From Candidatus Bathyarchaeota archaeon (GTDB lineage Archaea; Thermoproteota; Bathyarchaeia; Bathyarchaeales; Bathycorpusculaceae): DNA of 64,000 bases. The stretch is taken from positions 372,001 to 436,000 of the forward strand of contig JAOZHT010000002.1 of assembly GCA_026014735.1 (NCBI GenBank). Reading direction: 5' to 3'. The notes below the pieces were generated by a model. That model was not told where the DNA came from. It saw nothing but the letters and a program-made list of their open reading frames with translations, and did not search any database. Below, piece after piece: positions 15,450 to 25,285 of the stretch. The first letter of the stretch is position 1; each line of letters begins with the position of its first letter. The translations under genes and the position numbers were made by a program.

Positions 15450-16577
15450 TCATCTCCCAAAGGGTTTGCGGACAGTAAAGCGGTCGATAAGTGGTACTGT
15501 CAGGTTCATGATGATCAGTGCTAGTAATGCGCCGCCGAAGAAGTTCATATATGTTTGTATCAGAATGGTCAAAATTGCCAGACCAACACCAAAGACGATT
15601 TGTCCGATGCTGCTGAATGGTGTAGTAGCTGGATCAGTTGCCATGAAGAACGCCATGAATATTGAGCTGCCGATGAAGACCTCGAAGAGAAGCCTTGTGA
15701 ATAAGTCACTGTCTCCGAATGCGAATGAGAATATCACTGAGAGAATCGCGATGGCGACGAGGTAGCTGACGGTAATCTTCCACTTGATGTATTTGCGTGC
15801 CAAAACAAAGAGTGCGATACCTGCGACGATAACTGCAACGCTGCATGCTCCGCCGGCCCATCCGTGGTACTTATCAAGAATCATCAGCGAGGCGATGTCA
15901 TTAAGACTTGGCAAGCCAGCGGCCATATTTGCCGGGTTTGCATAGCAGCCTTGCAGGTAAGTGCCAAACGACGCTGCGCCGTTGGTTCCTATGGCTGTTG
16001 CGCCGTTGCCAATTGGGCCTGCTAATGCTGGAACGCCAAGGGGCCCTGTGGAGAGGTGGTCAACTGCAAGTAGAGTGGTCATTGCTGCGGGAAGGAGCAC
16101 GAGGAATTTTGCGGTGGCGGCGGGGTTAACGAGTTTTCTGCCTGCTAAACTCATGACTTTCTTGAAGAAGACTATACCGATAAGTGTCATAACTGCGACA
16201 TAAATCAGTGCCATGGGGCCTTCAACGGGGAGACCCATCTCGGTGTTCATTGCGGGGACGCCGAATGTAAAACAGGCGGTTACGATTAAGCCGAAAACTG
16301 CAGCGGACCAAGTGTTAACTTCGCTGTCAGCGGCTGTTTTGCCGATGAGGAAGTCAATTAGTACGGCTAAGCCTACTGATATGAGTGCACTTGCAGCAAT
16401 TGTTGCGCCCAGGTTCCATCCTGAGGTGGTAGTGACTTGTGACCATATAGCAGCTGAAACGATGAGGACAGCCAGAATCGCGAAGAAGGTGAATTGCATA
16501 AGACGGTTTTTTGTCATTGGTGCGTTAATGTGGGGTGCTGGATTAACAACTAGTTCTTTAGAGGTTTCGTTACTCAT
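15450..16577 (-). CDS. rnfD: Electron transport complex subunit RnfD-like
   Basis: Polytopic membrane protein of the RnfD/NqrB family (375 aa, about nine to ten helices). The C-terminal half has the family segment FMATDPATTPFSSIGQ and a further IxNLTVPLIDR ending. RnfD normally carries a covalent FMN on Thr in an SGAT-P-L like motif; the matching place here reads DHLSTGPLG, one residue short, so flavinylation is doubtful. It is the first gene of a coupled rnfD-rnfC pair. The usual partners rnfA, rnfB, rnfE and rnfG are not in this window. A TATA box lies about 34 bases upstream of the start. Confidence 0.82.
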   Translation of the reverse strand: MSNETSKELVVNPAPHINAPMTKNRLMQFTFFAILAVLIVSAAIWSQVTTTSGWNLGATIAASALISVGLAVLIDFLIGKTAADSEVNTWSAAVFGLIVTACFTFGVPAMNTEMGLPVEGPMALIYVAVMTLIGIVFFKKVMSLAGRKLVNPAATAKFLVLLPAAMTTLLAVDHLSTGPLGVPALAGPIGNGATAIGTNGAASFGTYLQGCYANPANMAAGLPSLNDIASLMILDKYHGWAGGACSVAVIVAGIALFVLARKYIKWKITVSYLVAIAILSVIFSFAFGDSDLFTRLLFEVFIGSSIFMAFFMATDPATTPFSSIGQIVFGVGLAILTILIQTYMNFFGGALLALIIMNLTVPLIDRFTVRKPFGR

Positions 16578-17362: not shown

Positions 17363-18475
17363 ATGAACCCAACTACGGCACCATTGTTTATGGTGGTTTG
17401 GCGTTGTACCCGTAACTGCGTGGGCACTTGCACCTACTGCAGCTACATTAAAGATTACGCAAAAGACCAGGAGTTAACCACGGAGCAAGCCAAGCACATG
17501 GTTGATGAAATGGCAGATTTTGGCTCTCAGTGGTTTGGAATCAGCGGCGGAGAACCCCTGGTTCGCCCAGACATCTGGGAAATCATTGAGTACGCCGAGA
17601 AGGAACATGGTTTAAACGTGAGTCTCATCACAAGCGGCTATGCATGGGATAAAGAGCGCTTTGATAAATTAACTAAATATAACGTGAAAACCGCCATAAG
17701 TATCGATGGCACCAAAGAGACAAACGACAAAATCAGGCGCCAAGGCGGCTACGATAAGGCTCTGCATGCCATGCAGCAGCTTAGCAGCGTCGGATTGCTG
17801 GATTGCCTCGTCACAACCATGACTAAATTCAACATCAAAGACCTGCCTCATACCGCTCAGTTGGCAGAGCAGTACCACGCTCGCTCAGTAGTATACCATA
17901 ACCTTGTTCCAGTGGGACGCGCAGGCGAACACATGGAAGACATCGCCCCAACCCCCGAAGAATACGAAACCGCCTTCAACGAAGTCTACAATATCCAACG
18001 TCGACTCTACGGCAAAGTCAAAGTCAACGTTTACTCACCCTTCTACGCCCGAATCGTCAAACAGAAGAACACCTCTGACTTCTGGGAATGGTACAACGAA
18101 GGCTACCTCGGCAGATGCACAATCGGCGGCAACTACATCGGCATCACCGAAAACGGCGACTACCGAAGCTGCGGCTTCCATGAAGGCTACCGAGTCGGCA
18201 ACGTCAAAGAAACCCATCTGCGCGACGCATGGGAAAACCTGCAGCGCAGCGAGTTCCACCTCAAGCTACGTGACAAGAACAACCTCAAGGGCAGATGCGG
18301 TTACTGTGAGTACCGGGAAATCTGCGGTGGATGCAGAACACGCGCTGAATTCTACACAGGCGACCTGTTTGCCTCTGACCCAGCATGCAACTATATCCCC
18401 AAGGTTCTCAAAGATAACCCCAAGTTGCTTGAGGAAGTCATGAAGGCAGAAAAACTCGCACAAATCAAACACTGA
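17363..18475 (+). CDS. Radical SAM/SPASM protein, paralog of 3752 gene
   Basis: Paralog of the enzyme at 3752-4831, aligning over its whole length. Radical SAM cluster motif CX3CX2C at C19, C23 and C26 with an additional Cys at 15, SGGEPLVRPDI for SAM binding, GITENGDY, and a SPASM-type C-terminus (CGYCEYREICGGCR ... DPACNYIP) as in NirJ/AhbC/AhbD. It lacks the Cys-bearing IPCFYT loop of its paralog but has RSCGFHEGY at that place, so both keep a Cys there. Heme or another ring-modifying substrate is possible but unproven. A TATA box and a downstream T-rich tract suggest a single-gene transcript. Confidence 0.82.
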   Translation: MNPTTAPLFMVVWRCTRNCVGTCTYCSYIKDYAKDQELTTEQAKHMVDEMADFGSQWFGISGGEPLVRPDIWEIIEYAEKEHGLNVSLITSGYAWDKERFDKLTKYNVKTAISIDGTKETNDKIRRQGGYDKALHAMQQLSSVGLLDCLVTTMTKFNIKDLPHTAQLAEQYHARSVVYHNLVPVGRAGEHMEDIAPTPEEYETAFNEVYNIQRRLYGKVKVNVYSPFYARIVKQKNTSDFWEWYNEGYLGRCTIGGNYIGITENGDYRSCGFHEGYRVGNVKETHLRDAWENLQRSEFHLKLRDKNNLKGRCGYCEYREICGGCRTRAEFYTGDLFASDPACNYIPKVLKDNPKLLEEVMKAEKLAQIKH

Positions 18476-18846: not shown

Positions 18847-19749
18847 CTACTTGTAGATCTTTTCCCATCTGGCGAAGAGGTCGAGAACATCATCGCCGCC
18901 ATGGCCCTTGAGGAACTCGCGTGTTTCCTTGTCCTCTGCGGCTTCCTTCTGGAACTTGTGGATGTACTCGGCTTTCTCAGCGAGGAAGATGATGCCGTCA
19001 ACGCCTTGGCGTGCAACGCGGGTGGCAACAGTCATGACTTGCTTGGTGGTTGCAACGGTGTCCCATGTTTCGTTTGGTCCTCGGACGTAGAAGTTGACCA
19101 TAACGGGCTTTTTGAGTTGGCTCTTAAAGCCGCGTGCGATGGTTTCCCAGTACCATGGAGTCGGGTATGCCTTGCTGAACATGGGTATGACGAAATAGTC
19201 AGCGTACTGTGCCAGCGCCTCGAAGTCGTAGCCGAAGCGGACTTTGCCCATAAGTGGGTCCGGGAGCAAGTTAACGAAGAGGGGTTTGCCCGAGACGATT
19301 TCTTTGACTTCAGCGAGGAAGTCGGTGACGGTTTTGGCGCGCCATTCTACCCAGCTTAAGCCGCTTTTGGCTTGTGCAGCGATGCATCTTGGGCAGGTGC
19401 AGAAGCCTTGGTCAGCGAAGTGTTGGCTGCTGATGCTTATGCCTGGGGTGAGGCGGGCTGATTCCTTGATGATTTTGAGGTTGTATTCGCGGGCTTCGGG
19501 GTTGGTCATGCAGACCACGTCCCAGCGGAGATTGAAGCGTTTGTTGGTGCGTAGGGCTGGGCCGAAGCTGCTTACGGATACCCAGTCGGGGCGCTGCGCG
19601 GCCATGTTGTTGTCGCCGAAGACTGCGATGTTTGTGTACATTTCAGGGTTTGCTTTTCCGACTATGCCGCTTTCGGATTTCTGTCGGTAAAAGTTGTAAT
19701 CGACGCCTTTTGCAGGCTCAGGTTGATAAAGGAATACGCCGAATTTCAA
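18847..19749 (-). CDS. Barrel-like protein with CTCPRC motif (paralog A)
   Basis: Unrecognised protein of about 300 aa, paralogous to the gene at 22371-23255. Shared motifs in order: SxxGPALRxNxRxNL, SSQHFADQGFCTCPRC with a probable metal-binding CxCxxC, KSGLSWVEWRAKTVTDFLAE, PDPLMGKVRFGYDFEALA, and LKKPVMVNF. The alternating strand/helix pattern and the CxC motif before an acidic stretch recall TIM-barrel glycoside-hydrolase-like proteins, but no catalytic pair is proven. TTG 19749 is chosen because it aligns with the paralog's start and the codons before it are AT-rich and unlike the gene; GTG 19848 is the longer alternative and fits the TATA box better. Likely cytosolic: no signal peptide. 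Confidence 0.6.
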   Translation of the reverse strand: MKFGVFLYQPEPAKGVDYNFYRQKSESGIVGKANPEMYTNIAVFGDNNMAAQRPDWVSVSSFGPALRTNKRFNLRWDVVCMTNPEAREYNLKIIKESARLTPGISISSQHFADQGFCTCPRCIAAQAKSGLSWVEWRAKTVTDFLAEVKEIVSGKPLFVNLLPDPLMGKVRFGYDFEALAQYADYFVIPMFSKAYPTPWYWETIARGFKSQLKKPVMVNFYVRGPNETWDTVATTKQVMTVATRVARQGVDGIIFLAEKAEYIHKFQKEAAEDKETREFLKGHGGDDVLDLFARWEKIYK

Positions 19750-19900
19750 GTTTTTTAATCCACCATTATTCGAGTTTACCAAAACATTCCGTCGGAGCCT
19801 TATTAAGTCTTCGTAAAATCCATCAAAAAACCGATTTTCCAAGTGCACAGCTCAGCTTCCAGGCTTGCTAACCTCAGCTGCACCCACAACCGATAGGCCC

Positions 19901-19913
19901 CTTATTTATAGGC
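19901..19913 (-). promoter_or_regulatory. TATA box for paralog A
   Basis: GCCTATAAATAAG on the minus strand, followed by a GGGG run. Predicted transcript start near 19882. Confidence 0.45.
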
Positions 19914-20093
19914 TCCACATCTGCAGAGCCCGAGGGCAGTTGCGGCTGCACAAGCCATGTTTTCGCCTAATCTTTTGGGCGTTTGCTGGGATAAGATGGT
20001 TTTTTATGTGCGTTTGCCGCCGCTCCGCAGCAGACCCGCCGAGTTACAGCAAATCTACCGCAACCCAGATAGGCGCATTCAGCAGATGCAGGG

Positions 20094-20858
20094 TTATATT
20101 TTCTGCAGCACATAGAAGGCGTAGCCGTAGTAGCTGCTGTAGTGGCGGAACATGCTGATTTCTTTTTCTTCGCTGTCAAGATATGCCATTGCGTCGGCGT
20201 CGCCGTGATGCTTGGCTCGTAGCCCGGGCAGTTTGGCCTCGATGGGCGTGTAGTAGTTATCCCACCAGCCGCTGTCGGGAAGCTTAAAGGAGCCCACAAC
20301 GCCGTAGCCCAGCTTCCGGGCGGTTTCCAGATTCTCCTCTACGGTGTTAGCCGAGGAGTTCTCCATTCCCGCATACATCTCAGCAAGAAAAGCCTTGACC
20401 TCCAGAGGCGCAGCGTCCCTGTTAAACCACGAAAGCTCCGAAGCCACCAAGTACCCGCCCCGCCTCAGCAGCGGCTGCCACTCCCGCAGGCCCCGCCCAA
20501 ACCCAATGACGAATATGGCGCCCTCGCACCAGACCAAATCGAAGCTTTCCTTGGGGTACTGCAGGTTAAACATATCGCCGCGGACAGCATGGATTCTGCT
20601 GCTTACGCCTGCTTTCTGGGCGGCGGCCTCAAGCTCGTCGAGGAAGGGCTGATGGAAATCCACGGCCTCAATCTGCACGCCGGAGAGCTTGGCTAACTCG
20701 ATGGTTTGCATGCCTGGTCCGCAGCCGACGTCGAGGATGCGGGGCTTTGGCGGCAACCCTTTGAGCATATGGAAGGCTTTAGCTGTTGATTGGCTATCGC
20801 CAGGGCCTTCCCGTGGAAGGTCGCTGTGCACTTCAAAGAATATAGCAGGCAAATCCAT
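20094..20858 (-). CDS. SAM-dependent methyltransferase
   Basis: Class I methyltransferase (254 aa) with motif I RILDVGCGPGMQTIELA (about residues 39-55), motif II acidic loop VEAVDFHQPFL, and FDLVWCEGAIFVIGF as motif IV region, then GGYLVASELSW. The pattern is that of small-molecule Methyltransf_11/25 enzymes. The substrate is unknown. It sits between the two CTCPRC barrel genes, on its own transcript, followed by a 220-base gap to the next gene on the left. Confidence 0.78.
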   Translation of the reverse strand: MDLPAIFFEVHSDLPREGPGDSQSTAKAFHMLKGLPPKPRILDVGCGPGMQTIELAKLSGVQIEAVDFHQPFLDELEAAAQKAGVSSRIHAVRGDMFNLQYPKESFDLVWCEGAIFVIGFGRGLREWQPLLRRGGYLVASELSWFNRDAAPLEVKAFLAEMYAGMENSSANTVEENLETARKLGYGVVGSFKLPDSGWWDNYYTPIEAKLPGLRAKHHGDADAMAYLDSEEKEISMFRHYSSYYGYAFYVLQKI

Positions 20859-20938
20859 AGATAATCAAACCCTTAGTTGATGCAATGATAATTAGGTACT
20901 GGTAGAAAAAAATTGCTGAACAAAGACTGGTTACAGCG

Positions 20939-22087
20939 CTATAGGGAGTTATTTGACGTACTATCCTCATCGAAGGTTCTGCCGTAGTTTGCTTCTCTTT
21001 CGGCAGCTATCTGCTTTTTTAACGCCTCTAGCTGCAGCTTATCTTCCTTTAGGAAGCCTGCGAATTTCATAATTTTCGATTTATGGGCTGACTCTATTAT
21101 TTGGATTAACGCCTCTTTTATGAAAGGCGGCAAGTCAACTGCGCTGGTATCAGGCGTATTTTCACCTTTTGCATTGACGCTGCTCCAGTCCTCAAAGTCC
21201 GTGGGCAACAGGTTCTTCTTGTAGTCCTCGTCGAGTCTCGATGCCGCCAGCAGTTGCCAGCCATAGACGGGATTTTGCCTTAAAATCGCGGATAGCCCCT
21301 CAGCCGACACCTCCAAACCCTCTATTTTGCTGACCTCCGCCGCCAGCTTCTCCAGCGGCAGATGCCTCTCCCGCAGCCGATCCGCCACGCTCCTTGCACC
21401 CCAAAACGGCTCCTGCTTAAGCAGCGCCTCAGCCACCGCCTGCCGCGTGCATGCACCCACGAGCTTACCCAACTTCGAGGCGGGACCGCCCAGAACCACA
21501 GGTTTGCCCTTGCCGTTTGTTGCCACCGTTACGCTGTCGGTGATGGAGCCCGTGGCGGAGTCGCCGGTGTAGCGGCTGCGCACGTCAAGGTCTCGGAGCG
21601 CCGCGGTTTTGGCTTCGGTGGCGGTGATCAGCGAGGCGACCATGCAGCTTTCTGCGGGGTTGCCGTCGATGAAGACTATGATGTTTATGGTGCCGGCGAT
21701 TTCCTGTACATCCATGTCTTCGCCGCTGGATTCGCCATGCTGGCAGCCTGCGGTGGCGGCTACGGTGACGGAGAAGTCGGTGGCTTTTTGGGTTTTTAGG
21801 CTGTAGTTTTTGATGTTGGCGGCGGTGACCATGGCGAGGTAATCGTCGGTTAAACCCAGTTTAAGCGCAGAGGAAGTTATGAGTTGCAGCGGGTCAAGGT
21901 GCAAAGAAAGGTCGCTGTAACCCTCCGGCACCCCTATGTTAAGGACGGCTTTAACCGGTCTGCACCCGCCGTTAAAGATGGCTGAGCTAACTGTCTTTAA
22001 AGGATTATCACAAATTACGGCTAGCACGTTGTCTTTGCGGATAAGTCTGGTGCCTTCAGCTAAATCATGCTGCATCAAATTAGCCAC
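20939..22087 (-). CDS. cbiZ: Adenosylcobinamide amidohydrolase CbiZ
   Basis: CbiZ hydrolyses the amide bond of adenosylcobinamide to give adenosylcobyric acid, letting archaea salvage incomplete corrinoids. Diagnostic stretches are present: AGTINIIVFIDGNP, SLITATEAKTAALRDLDVRS, YTGDSATGSITDSVTVATNG and GPASKLGKLVGACTRQAV. The core covers about residues 1-240; the C-terminal 140 residues form a longer helical extension than in short CbiZ forms. Its start lies 7 bases after the ferredoxin stop, so the two are probably one transcript. The need for corrinoid fits the CdhD/CdhE corrinoid protein encoded at the right end. Confidence 0.85.
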   Translation of the reverse strand: MANLMQHDLAEGTRLIRKDNVLAVICDNPLKTVSSAIFNGGCRPVKAVLNIGVPEGYSDLSLHLDPLQLITSSALKLGLTDDYLAMVTAANIKNYSLKTQKATDFSVTVAATAGCQHGESSGEDMDVQEIAGTINIIVFIDGNPAESCMVASLITATEAKTAALRDLDVRSRYTGDSATGSITDSVTVATNGKGKPVVLGGPASKLGKLVGACTRQAVAEALLKQEPFWGARSVADRLRERHLPLEKLAAEVSKIEGLEVSAEGLSAILRQNPVYGWQLLAASRLDEDYKKNLLPTDFEDWSSVNAKGENTPDTSAVDLPPFIKEALIQIIESAHKSKIMKFAGFLKEDKLQLEALKKQIAAEREANYGRTFDEDSTSNNSL

Positions 22088-22093
22088 CCATAG

Positions 22094-22312
22094 CTACTTG
22101 GGGGATTTGCCTGCATTTAAGCTGATGGCTTTGCCGGGGCACAAATTCACGCATATCCCGCAGCTGGTGCACTGCACTAAAGCGATAACTTGGGGTTTGC
22201 GGTTTTTGCCTTCCTCGAAAACGCCCTGTGGACAGACACCGATGCAGATTTGCCCCGTGCATGGCTGGCACTTAGCAAGGTCGATGGTTATCGGTGAATT
22301 AGCTTTGCCCAT
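22094..22312 (-). CDS. Small 2x[4Fe-4S] ferredoxin
   Basis: Ferredoxin-like protein of about 72 aa. The second cluster motif is standard (CTSCGICVNLCP); the first is unusual in spacing (CQPCTGQICIGVCP, CX2CX4CX3CP). ATG 22312 gives MGKANS; ATG 22324 is four codons earlier. It precedes cbiZ by 7 bases in the same direction. A possible role is to deliver electrons for corrinoid or radical SAM chemistry, but this is inference from position. Confidence 0.75.
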   Translation of the reverse strand: MGKANSPITIDLAKCQPCTGQICIGVCPQGVFEEGKNRKPQVIALVQCTSCGICVNLCPGKAISLNAGKSPK

Positions 22313-22370
22313 GCGAATCAACAATTAAATAAGCGCCAAGAATATATCTGTTGCGAGCAGAGGGGTATGC

Positions 22371-23255
22371 ATGAAAATCGGCTTAGTCACCTATAAACCC
22401 GAATTCGTCGAAGGCTACGATGTTCACGTTTACTACAGCAAATGGGCAGATGGACAAGCAAACCCCGCCGCCGTCGGTATGCAGAATGATGTGACGGTTT
22501 TCTGCGACGCCAAAGCCATCCGCGAGGACCCCGCGATGGTTTCCACCTCCAAGTATGGTCCCGCATTGCGGCGTAACAGACGCAACAACCTGCCCTTTGA
22601 CTATGTTTGCCCCACACATCCGGGGTACCGACAAAAAGTCTACAGCTACCTTGACAGCCTCACAGAACAGGACATAGAGGGCATTACACTTAACCTCTAC
22701 CACTTTGCCGACCAGGACTTCTGCACCTGCCCCAGATGCACCCAGATGCGCCAGAAAAGCGGGCTGGGCTGGACGGAGTGGCGAGCCAAAGTCGTCACGG
22801 ATTTTCTCGCCGAAGCCAAAACCCACACCAAAGGCACCTTCGCCGTGGAAATGTTCCCTGACCCCGTGCTAGCTAAGGAACGATTCGGCATAGACTTCGA
22901 AGCCATCGCGGAGCTGGTGGATTACTTCCATGTGCCCCTCTCCTCAAGAGACTACTTTACCAACTACTGGGTTGACACCATAACCCGCGACTTCTGCGCT
23001 ACGCTTAAAAAACCCGTGGTTGTGGAACTTAGCTCCGAACTACCCACCGACGAGAAACTCGACGCGCTCCTCAAAACCGTGAGCTACATCTCCCGCCATG
23101 ACCTGATGGCGACGCTGCTTCTGGTCCATGACTCAGAAAACGCAAGGCAAGTTGCTTCCTTCGCGGTTCACAACGCTGCTTTCCGCGAGTGGCTAGACAC
23201 CTACGAGTTTAGCAAGATGCAGAAAATCGTGGATAACTGGGCAAAAATCTACTAG
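22371..23255 (+). CDS. Barrel-like protein with CTCPRC motif (paralog B)
   Basis: Paralog of the gene at 18847-19749, 294 aa, begins MKIGLVTYKPEF. Shared motifs: SKYGPALRRNRRNN, NLYHFADQDFCTCPRC, KSGLGWTEWRAKVVTDFLAE, FPDPVLAKERFGIDFEAIA, DYFHVPL, and LKKPVVVELS. CxCxxC suggests a bound metal near a strand end of an alpha/beta barrel. No signal peptide, so cytosolic. GAGGGG upstream is a good ribosome-binding site. The gene is divergent from ferredoxin-cbiZ and converges on the nitrilase gene. Family not recognised; a glycoside-hydrolase-like fold is the best guess. Confidence 0.62.
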   Translation: MKIGLVTYKPEFVEGYDVHVYYSKWADGQANPAAVGMQNDVTVFCDAKAIREDPAMVSTSKYGPALRRNRRNNLPFDYVCPTHPGYRQKVYSYLDSLTEQDIEGITLNLYHFADQDFCTCPRCTQMRQKSGLGWTEWRAKVVTDFLAEAKTHTKGTFAVEMFPDPVLAKERFGIDFEAIAELVDYFHVPLSSRDYFTNYWVDTITRDFCATLKKPVVVELSSELPTDEKLDALLKTVSYISRHDLMATLLLVHDSENARQVASFAVHNAAFREWLDTYEFSKMQKIVDNWAKIY

Positions 23256-23261
23256 CCCAAA

Positions 23262-24017
23262 CTACCGATTTTTGTGTAGGCTGGCGCGATAAGCTTTTAG
23301 CCGCGTCATATCCAGATCCGCTGACAAAACCGAGTCCTCCGCTGCGTCAGATACCTCGCCTAGCACACCCCACGGCGCAATGATGGCGCTTCTGCCGCCC
23401 CGCATGTTGCTGCTGACGTTGCCCACTTTTATGACAAACACACCGTAATCCCGCGCAATCGCCTCCGTCAACGGATGCCCCTTCACCACGGGATGCGTAC
23501 CCATAGCGGCAACGGGCAACGTGAGAATTTCCGCGCCCATCGCAGCGACCTTTTTGATTAATTCCGGGTCGAAGCTGTCAGCGCAGACGATGAGCCCGAT
23601 TTTGCCGACTTCCGTATCCACCACAAGCGGTGTACAGCCCCTAGCGACGCCCGCTTGGACTTCAGCCTGGATAGGATTGATTTTCTTATACTTCGCAACA
23701 AGCGCTCCGTTGCGCCAAAGCGTACTGGTGTTAAAGAATTTGCCGCCATCTTCCTCAAGCACAGAGCCGCCGAGGAGGTAGATGTCGCCGATTTGGGAGG
23801 ATATTTCTTGGAGGAACTGGAGTGTTTTTTGGCAGGTGCCGCGGCTGATTTTGGGGGCGTCTGAGAAGTTGGCCATGCAGTCGGGGACAGTGAAGTACTC
23901 GGGTAACGCGATGAGGGCGGGTTTTTCTTTGGCTGCTCGGAGCACGGCTGCTCTGGCTGCGGCGAGGTTTTTTTGTAGGGTGTCTCGGATTTCCATGTGG
24001 AGCAAGCTGACTTTCAC
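23262..24017 (-). CDS. Carbon-nitrogen hydrolase (nitrilase superfamily)
   Basis: Nitrilase/omega-amidase type enzyme (251 aa) with the Glu-Lys-Cys triad visible: E40 in LPEYF, Lys in AKYKKINP (about 114) and Cys in LIVCADSFDPEL (about 148). The Cys motif CADSFDPE deviates from the usual CYDxRFPE. These enzymes hydrolyse amides such as 2-oxoamides or N-carbamoyl compounds; the substrate here is not known. It converges on paralog B with only 6 bases between the stops. Confidence 0.82.
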   Translation of the reverse strand: MKVSLLHMEIRDTLQKNLAAARAAVLRAAKEKPALIALPEYFTVPDCMANFSDAPKISRGTCQKTLQFLQEISSQIGDIYLLGGSVLEEDGGKFFNTSTLWRNGALVAKYKKINPIQAEVQAGVARGCTPLVVDTEVGKIGLIVCADSFDPELIKKVAAMGAEILTLPVAAMGTHPVVKGHPLTEAIARDYGVFVIKVGNVSSNMRGGRSAIIAPWGVLGEVSDAAEDSVLSADLDMTRLKAYRASLHKNR

Positions 24018-24307: not shown

Positions 24308-25285
24308 ATGGCTCTTAACGAAACAGAAGTAAATAAACTCTTACCAGGCATCAAAACCCTGGTCAACAAAATCGTCAAAAAGAACCTCGCCGACGGCTTC
24401 CTCTTCTCCGCAGGAACCGACACCCAAATCATCGCCTACGAAGCAGTCAAATACAAACCCGACATCCCCTGCCTCACCTTAGCCTTCAAACACGGCCAAC
24501 CCAAAGACACCGAATACGTCAAAAAAATGGTTGAGCTCCTACACCTCAAACATGAAACCTACCAGTTCGGCAAAGAAGACGTCTACAAATTCTACCCCAA
24601 AGTCGTCGAAGCACTCAAAAAATATGACCCTATGGAAATCCGCAACAGCCTTCCAGTCTACATCGGCTTAACCCTACTGAAACCCAAGGGCATAAAAACC
24701 GTCTTCACCGGCGACGCACTCGACGAGCTTTTCGGTTACCCCTGGCAGTTCCACCTCACTGAGGAACAATTCGCAGTCAAGCAACAGGAAATGTGGGCTG
24801 AGATGGGTTTCTCCTCGTTCCCGATGGCTGAATCTATGGGCATGCAGATCAAGGCGCCCTACCGTGACCCCGAATTTATGGATTGGGCCATGAAGCTGCC
24901 GATCAAGTACAAGATCAACATGTACAACGGCGTAAAATACGGCAAATGGATTCTACGCAAAGCCTACGAGGACGTTATCCCCAAAGACATCATCTGGAGA
25001 CCCAAAGCGCCCCTTGAAGCCGGAACCGGAACCGAAACCCTGCGCACCTACTTCAACGACTTAGTCGAAGACAAAGAATTCAACGAAAAGAAAGCAGCAA
25101 TCAAAGCCGAGGACGACGTGGAAATCCAAGATAAAGAGCAACTCCTCTACTACGAGGTCTTCCGCAAAAAGTTCGGCAAACCCAAAGAAGTCTTCCCCAA
25201 AGGCTCAGTTGAATGCCCCAAATGCCACAGCCGCATGAACACGAAAATCCAGTTCTGCAAAATCTGCGGAGCTTACCCAATCTAA
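24308..25285 (+). CDS. Asparagine-synthase-like protein with zinc ribbon
   Basis: PP-loop ATP pyrophosphatase of the asparagine synthase (C-terminal domain) family, 325 aa. The PP-loop reads FSAGTDTQ (about residues 33-40) instead of SGGxDS, and FTGDALDELFGYPW matches the family's second conserved block. There is no N-terminal glutaminase domain, so it would use free ammonia or another amine, or adenylate another acid. The C-terminus (about 302-322) is a zinc ribbon, CPKCHS...CKICG, not part of AsnB. The product is uncertain: asparagine synthesis is possible but an RNA- or protein-modifying role is not excluded. A poly-T terminator follows. Confidence 0.75.
   Translation: MALNETEVNKLLPGIKTLVNKIVKKNLADGFLFSAGTDTQIIAYEAVKYKPDIPCLTLAFKHGQPKDTEYVKKMVELLHLKHETYQFGKEDVYKFYPKVVEALKKYDPMEIRNSLPVYIGLTLLKPKGIKTVFTGDALDELFGYPWQFHLTEEQFAVKQQEMWAEMGFSSFPMAESMGMQIKAPYRDPEFMDWAMKLPIKYKINMYNGVKYGKWILRKAYEDVIPKDIIWRPKAPLEAGTGTETLRTYFNDLVEDKEFNEKKAAIKAEDDVEIQDKEQLLYYEVFRKKFGKPKEVFPKGSVECPKCHSRMNTKIQFCKICGAYPI

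Follow-up and report, generated by a model that had tools for sequence, protein, structure and literature searches.

A 64,000-nucleotide stretch of the genome of a Candidatus Bathyarchaeota archaeon (assembly GCA_026014735.1, contig JAOZHT010000002.1, positions 372,001 to 436,000; here called the window) encodes two paralogous barrel proteins, orfA and orfB, whose family is almost certainly MtgB, a Bathyarchaeia-specific group of substrate methyltransferases (MT1) that O-demethylate methoxylated aromatic compounds onto a corrinoid protein. This identification is drawn from a set of converging properties, and we regard the explanation as a whole, in which both orfA and orfB belong to the MtgB family, as very likely. 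The two genes are as follows.

18847..19749, minus strand: orfA, an MtgB-family barrel of ~300 residues, from the clade of MtgB_1/MtgB_2-like copies
22371..23255, plus strand: orfB, a divergent MtgB-family barrel of 294 residues, probably from 'group 3' of Yu et al.

Both open reading frames (ORFs) are present where an earlier reading, made from the DNA letters alone (the sequence-only reading), had placed them. The proteins are identical at 115 of 304 positions (38%; BLASTP, E 2e-66), in agreement with the paralogy and divergence then proposed, and every block named at that time (HFADQ-x-FCTCPRC, KSGL-x-W-x-EWRAK, PDP...RFG-x-DFEA and LKKPV) is found in each. The ORF of orfA spans 18847-19848 on the minus strand and would give 333 residues if begun at GTG 19848; the most likely start is TTG 19749, giving 300 residues, because the relatives begin M-K-F-G. 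The genome that contains the window (G000, 2.9 Mb) has four copies of the family: orfA (A) and orfB (B) here, and two more, C and D, on contigs 4 and 1 respectively. The latter two (loci L034 and L035) lie outside the cbiZ block described below and may be MT1 enzymes for other substrates.

According to the accessible text of Yu et al. (2023, PMC10989822), MtgB comprises two MT1 proteins of ~300 residues that have no homology to known MT1 enzymes and a mutual similarity of 44.85%. Their genes are clustered with those for a second methyltransferase (MT2), a corrinoid protein (CoP) and a membrane protein, are found only in Bathyarchaeia, where they form three groups, and are restricted to one order; expressed MtgB_2, the copy with published activity, acts on guaiacol and vanillin (PMC10989822). 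With lengths of 300 and 294 residues, orfA and orfB share the size of these proteins as well as their lineage and their division into three clades, and scans of Pfam and NCBIfam matched neither to a known MT1 family. In loci L068 and L120 of BIN-L-1, from the genus of the published organism (BIN-L-1/Bathyarchaeum), copies A and C stand side by side and share 44.850% identity across 301 aligned columns; the corresponding value is 45.515% in L039/L121 (B. tardum) and L119. The published gene cluster also has its counterpart, with an MtrH-type MT2, a B12-binding protein and a DUF1616 membrane protein encoded contiguously in relatives.

The copy numbers follow a published pattern as well. A 2024 study (ISME Commun), in the part available, gives two to five MtgB homologs for Bathy-6A and 6C and none for 6B, in which MtgA and MtgC remain, and the genus of the window has likewise either three to five copies or zero, with MtrH retained in the zero class. 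The MT1 of Bathy-6 is left unnamed in the accessible portion of Loh et al. (2021). B. tardum M17C is described, in the part of its account available, as converting dimethoxybenzoate to dihydroxybenzoate. Its genome holds four barrels. Neither B. tardum nor G000 has a match to MttB (PF06253) or URO-D (PF01208), the two families to which known MT1 types for substrates of this kind are generally assigned. The barrels would share with these families the transfer of a methyl group from substrate to corrinoid protein, but do not match them in sequence.

Several observations weigh against this identification. It draws on converging properties rather than on an alignment with a published MtgB sequence, and the printed 44.85% is a 'similarity' whereas our figure is a BLASTP identity (positives 63-64%). 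Unlike the published copies, those of the window are parted by cbiZ and a ferredoxin gene and are not adjacent to the MtrH and CoP genes; the DUF1616-MtrH-CoP genes of this genome (C2:360796-362468) are on the same contig, beyond the window and ~28 kb upstream of orfA. The published activity is that of MtgB_2 alone, and the divergent clade of orfB departs from several positions conserved in A, C and D. Homologs exist outside the order, where they sit in B12-uptake clusters that a purely lignin-related role does not account for. Finally, the closest folds among the matches listed are glycosidases and not known MT1 enzymes. The sequence-only reading, which did not recognise the family, had held its link to the corrinoid genes open to challenge by a strong match to a characterised family whose function had nothing to do with the neighbourhood; the family matched here is a published one (Yu 2023, in the text available), and its function is related to the neighbourhood because MtgB requires a corrinoid protein.

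Searching the 398 genomes of the phylum with orfA gave strong matches in 28 (30 matched, G006 and G110 being set aside as partial, with E about 1e-4): 22 from the window's family with three to five copies, four from family f4 with four copies and two from family f10 with one copy. All 28 genomes with a full-length barrel also have CbiZ and MtrH matches. Six genomes of the window's genus have CbiZ and MtrH and zero barrels, and nine others of its family have neither barrel nor CbiZ, MtrH being present in one of these nine (G297). A family profile, applied to the 256 genomes of the class, found strong matches in 62, including single copies in families f9 (G535) and f15 (G415); it matched 66 in all, and G485, G429, G430 and G154 were set aside (partial, E 1e-7 to 1e-12). 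Against the 398 genomes of the phylum the profile matched 40, 28 of them strongly, and gave weak partial matches at most outside the class. Multi-copy members are confined to families f1 and f4 of the order, and the single-copy homologs in G027, G043, G415 and G535 belong to other families of the class. The best 80 of 116 confirmed relatives come from Bathyarchaeota or MCG metagenome-assembled genomes (including Ca. Bathycorpusculum) or carry broader names (Crenarchaeota, Nitrososphaerota archaeon). The E-values and tree support values given here are uncorrected for shared ancestry.

The class I S-adenosylmethionine (SAM) methyltransferase, CbiZ and 2[4Fe-4S] ferredoxin genes that the sequence-only reading had seen between the paralogs are all there, and two further genes follow orfB.

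20094..20858, minus strand: class I SAM methyltransferase, between orfA and cbiZ
20939..22087, minus strand: CbiZ-domain protein (PF01955, 5e-48), with an adenosylcobinamide amidohydrolase domain and a C-terminal part that is partly CbiS-like
22094..22324, minus strand: 2[4Fe-4S] ferredoxin, between orfB and cbiZ, a candidate electron donor for corrinoid reactivation
23262..24017, minus strand: nitrilase/CN_hydrolase, detected in 20 of the 23 barrel stretches fetched and in none of the 6 cbiZ loci that lack barrels
24308..25285, plus strand: Asn-synthase-like ATP-PPase with a zinc ribbon

The survey of gene neighbourhoods that had been proposed as a check shows that the B-ferredoxin-CbiZ-A block is repeated across the window's family, running on in many relatives into DUF1616-MtrH-CoP, in some with C after A; the MtrH, DUF1616 and B12-binding proteins of these clusters are backed by Pfam matches. 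Families f1 and f4 together have 26 barrel genomes, of which 23 were counted (G124 and G266 were not fetched, and G396 is interrupted by contig ends). In all 23 the ferredoxin gene separates B from CbiZ, and in 10 MtrH falls within the fetched stretch. No ferredoxin was found beside cbiZ in the six barrel-less loci, a set in which absence is weak for L078 (just 3.1 kb) and L074 (cbiZ ~1 kb from the contig end). In a second genome collection, which overlaps the first in loci and is therefore counted separately, the ferredoxin is present in 37 of 39 loci having a barrel and a CbiZ match, the exceptions being L125 and L130 (3.0 and 5.4 kb). The ferredoxin is apparently a new partner of the barrel-cbiZ module. 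CbiZ belongs to the conserved block, yet is retained in barrel-less genomes too, and the same is true of the Asn-synthase-like ATP-PPase, which is therefore not barrel-specific. The barrel-less loci L074-L079 keep both genes, with histidine-biosynthesis genes near in L074-L077 and L079.

The SAM methyltransferase resembles weakly the NCBIfam models DVU_1556 and CpaM (corrinoid-protein-associated) and has no match of at least 80 bits in the other 133 loci searched. It probably lies outside the module, since it was seen in the window's genome alone among the loci searched. On its other side orfA adjoins a gene for a radical SAM/SPASM protein of AhbD/NirJ type (17363-18475, plus strand), and comparable genes occur close to the mtg cluster in L039, L068, L075-L077, L109 and L120. 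An RnfD/NqrB-type membrane protein (15450-16577, minus strand; PF03116, 6.6e-41) is possibly from an Rnf-like complex.

The AlphaFold models of orfA and orfB have predicted local distance difference test (pLDDT) scores of 96.0 and 95.7, and both are TIM barrels of the glycoside-hydrolase-like kind that the sequence-only reading had suspected. Among the 50 VIA-align matches listed for each model, Cwp19 and PgaB come nearest (Z about 19-21), with 6tvk at about 19, which we take to be a GH151 fucosidase, and GH42 enzymes at about 17-18. No known MT1 structure is among these 50 matches for either model, which excludes nothing. No export signal was seen, in keeping with the cytosolic location proposed earlier. 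Weak Pfam matches to DUF4015/DUF4838 stay below the cut-offs for the two proteins: for DUF4015 (PF13200) orfA scores 21 bits against a gathering cut-off of 27 and orfB has no match, and the homologs L050 (36.4) and L197 (27.7) exceed it. A search with orfA found no match in NCBIfam or among PDB sequences, and the family profile gave marginal matches at best against the PDB.

Residues invariant in 28 diverse members include C81, C118/C120/C123, K25, D47, P164-D165-P166, R172 and Y196 (residue 1 is codon 33 of the orfA ORF). By the secondary structure most invariant residues would lie at or just past the strand ends, on the face that holds the active site in such barrels. GHL10-type proteins from the same order have the CxCxxC motif too, two of three with the upstream Cys as well, and 6tvk has a similar Cys pattern. 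The likeness to glycoside-hydrolase-like proteins that had been noted earlier for this site thus holds, the site is not specific to the function of the barrels, and we rejected the motif as a corrinoid-specific or iron-sulfur signature. The cysteines probably bind a structural zinc, as in GH42; a literature search on this point found nothing.

These similarities raise the alternative that orfA and orfB are cytosolic glycoside hydrolases that act on sugars and have no tie to corrinoids. The fold is indeed that of GHL10 (PF02638), DUF4015, PgaB/GH153, Cwp19, GH151 (6tvk) and GH42 proteins, and the four-Cys pattern is common to the GHL10 relatives and 6tvk. However, the Asp that ends strand β4 in GHL10-type proteins, presumably a catalytic residue in glycosidases, has given way to Ser in orfA and to Asn in orfB, C and D; the E-type barrels of f4 have Glu there, and the f9, f10 and f15 homologs retain the Asp. 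Given this substitution, the sub-cut-off Pfam scores and a corrinoid gene context in which CbiZ and MtrH accompany the barrels in every barrel genome, we rejected a glycosidase identity, which we consider highly improbable. A barrel derived from glycoside hydrolases that has inherited the four-Cys site and lost the acidic residue is apparently new.

The two paralogs are not equivalent. Sequence grouping places orfA with the MtgB_1/2-like clades and orfB in the divergent one, likely 'group 3', whose function is putative. Although orfB retains the invariant residues of the family, it lacks the TPWYWE and GPGD features typical of A, C and D and has in common with the homologs linked to btu genes a T-x-YW motif and a shortened loop. 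RACo (PF14574), the usual corrinoid activator, was sought in 12 genomes: G000 and seven others lack it, and G321, G027, G043 and G535 have it; the first three of these four also match URO-D or MttB, G535 being outside that comparison. The missing activator is remarked on in the available parts of Yu et al. (PMC10989822) and Khomyakova et al. The conserved ferredoxin would be the simplest candidate for a substitute, and may supply the electrons that keep the cobalt as Co(I), because RACo is absent. It is possible, though we doubt it, that only orfA is an MT1 and that orfB and the ferredoxin serve the corrinoid, by reactivation or loading. The position of both genes next to cbiZ in each of the 23 genomes, the lack of RACo from most barrel genomes tested and the features that set orfB apart are consistent with such a role; its intact invariant residues weigh against it, and the ferredoxin alone might reactivate the corrinoid.

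The homologs outside the order have a different setting. In f10 the single copy follows btuF and precedes a radical SAM gene, btuC and btuD, opposite cbiB, cobT, cbiS/cbiZ, cobS and cobY; f9 has the order btuF-barrel-btuC-btuD, adjoining genes for a CobD-like aminotransferase and a CobQ-like protein, cbiB, cbiZ and cobS; and the f15 barrel adjoins a cobalamin adenosyltransferase gene (PF01923). In a tree with GHL10 outgroups the f9, f10 and f15 copies branch outside A-D (93/94), at a base without resolution; clade B is supported at 100/99 and A/C/D at 100/100, and long branches leave the base unsure. That these single copies with their corrinoid-related neighbours branch outside A-D suggests, though it falls short of proof, a corrinoid-linked role older than O-demethylation. 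No mention of such homologs was found in the accessible portions of the literature.

Corrinoid salvage was the context proposed by the sequence-only reading, and the corrinoid setting stands, whereas the best-supported job of the barrels is corrinoid-dependent methyl transfer. We consider it quite unlikely that they are salvage enzymes, such as a cobamide-remodelling hydrolase or ligand remover, with a secondary co-occurrence of MtrH and CoP. In the A/B clusters the barrels do have CbiZ as a neighbour, the out-of-order copies lie between btuF and btuC (f9, f10) or by the adenosyltransferase gene (f15), and a TIM barrel can remodel cobamides, as CbiR does in the text available (PMC7733943). However, O-demethylation has been measured for MtgB_2 (PMC10989822), the six barrel-less relatives still keep CbiZ and MtrH, and the stand-alone C and D copies lack queried corrinoid genes in most fetched stretches. 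None was found among the queried genes in most C-barrel stretches or in either f4 E-type stretch. The E-type barrels of Bathyarchaeum are at L040:8727-9620 and L069:8904-9797, the former with a GDSL lipase gene and an acyltransferase gene as neighbours and no corrinoid genes. CbiR itself shares a TIM barrel and a corrinoid gene context with our proteins but belongs, as described, to the AP endonuclease 2 superfamily, with a His/Asp/Glu metal site (PMC7733943). The barrels have no Pfam link to AP_endonuc_2, and CbiR-like membership was rejected, PF01261 not being among the Pfam matches at E up to 1.

A salvage origin can also be combined with the MtgB identity. A glycosidase-like barrel would first have become an enzyme for imported cobamides, a state that the single copies between btuF and btuC would preserve, and then have been copied and redirected to methoxylated aromatics, RACo being replaced by the ferredoxin, possibly with orfB; we think this unlikely. 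In one possible version the ancestor stripped a cobamide methyl group, for example from the methoxy substituent of a lower ligand such as 5-methoxybenzimidazole, or an upper methyl ligand; no paper was found that joins O-demethylation with 5-methoxybenzimidazole cobamides.

Under the MtgB identification, orfA and orfB would be two of four MT1 members of the family in a Bathycorpusculum-like bathyarchaeon. In a relative, Yu et al. (2023, PMC10989822), in the text available, report that MtgB_2 demethylates methoxylated aromatics (guaiacol, vanillin), the methyl group being carried to the Co(I) of a small corrinoid protein. By analogy orfA would demethylate its own methoxylated substrate or substrates, using the CoP encoded ~28 kb upstream, and the MtrH-type MT2 encoded with it would pass the methyl group to tetrahydromethanopterin and thence to acetyl-CoA. 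The catalytic face would be that of a glycoside-hydrolase-type barrel in which the β4 acidic residue has been replaced and the four-Cys site, probably binding zinc, inherited. As a divergent member in the same block, orfB may have a third MT1 specificity or act on the corrinoid side, and the ferredoxin beside it may feed the electrons that hold cobalt as Co(I).

Two genes that were unknown are now assigned to a family with measured chemistry. The enzyme family is real and already published, and its fold, partner gene and ancestry appear to be unreported in the portions of the literature consulted. They offer testable additions: a methyltransferase built on a glycosidase-type barrel, the ferredoxin of the module as the possible missing corrinoid activator, and basal relatives tied to vitamin B12 uptake. 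The MtgB family lets abundant archaea of sediments and guts feed on the methoxy groups of lignin.

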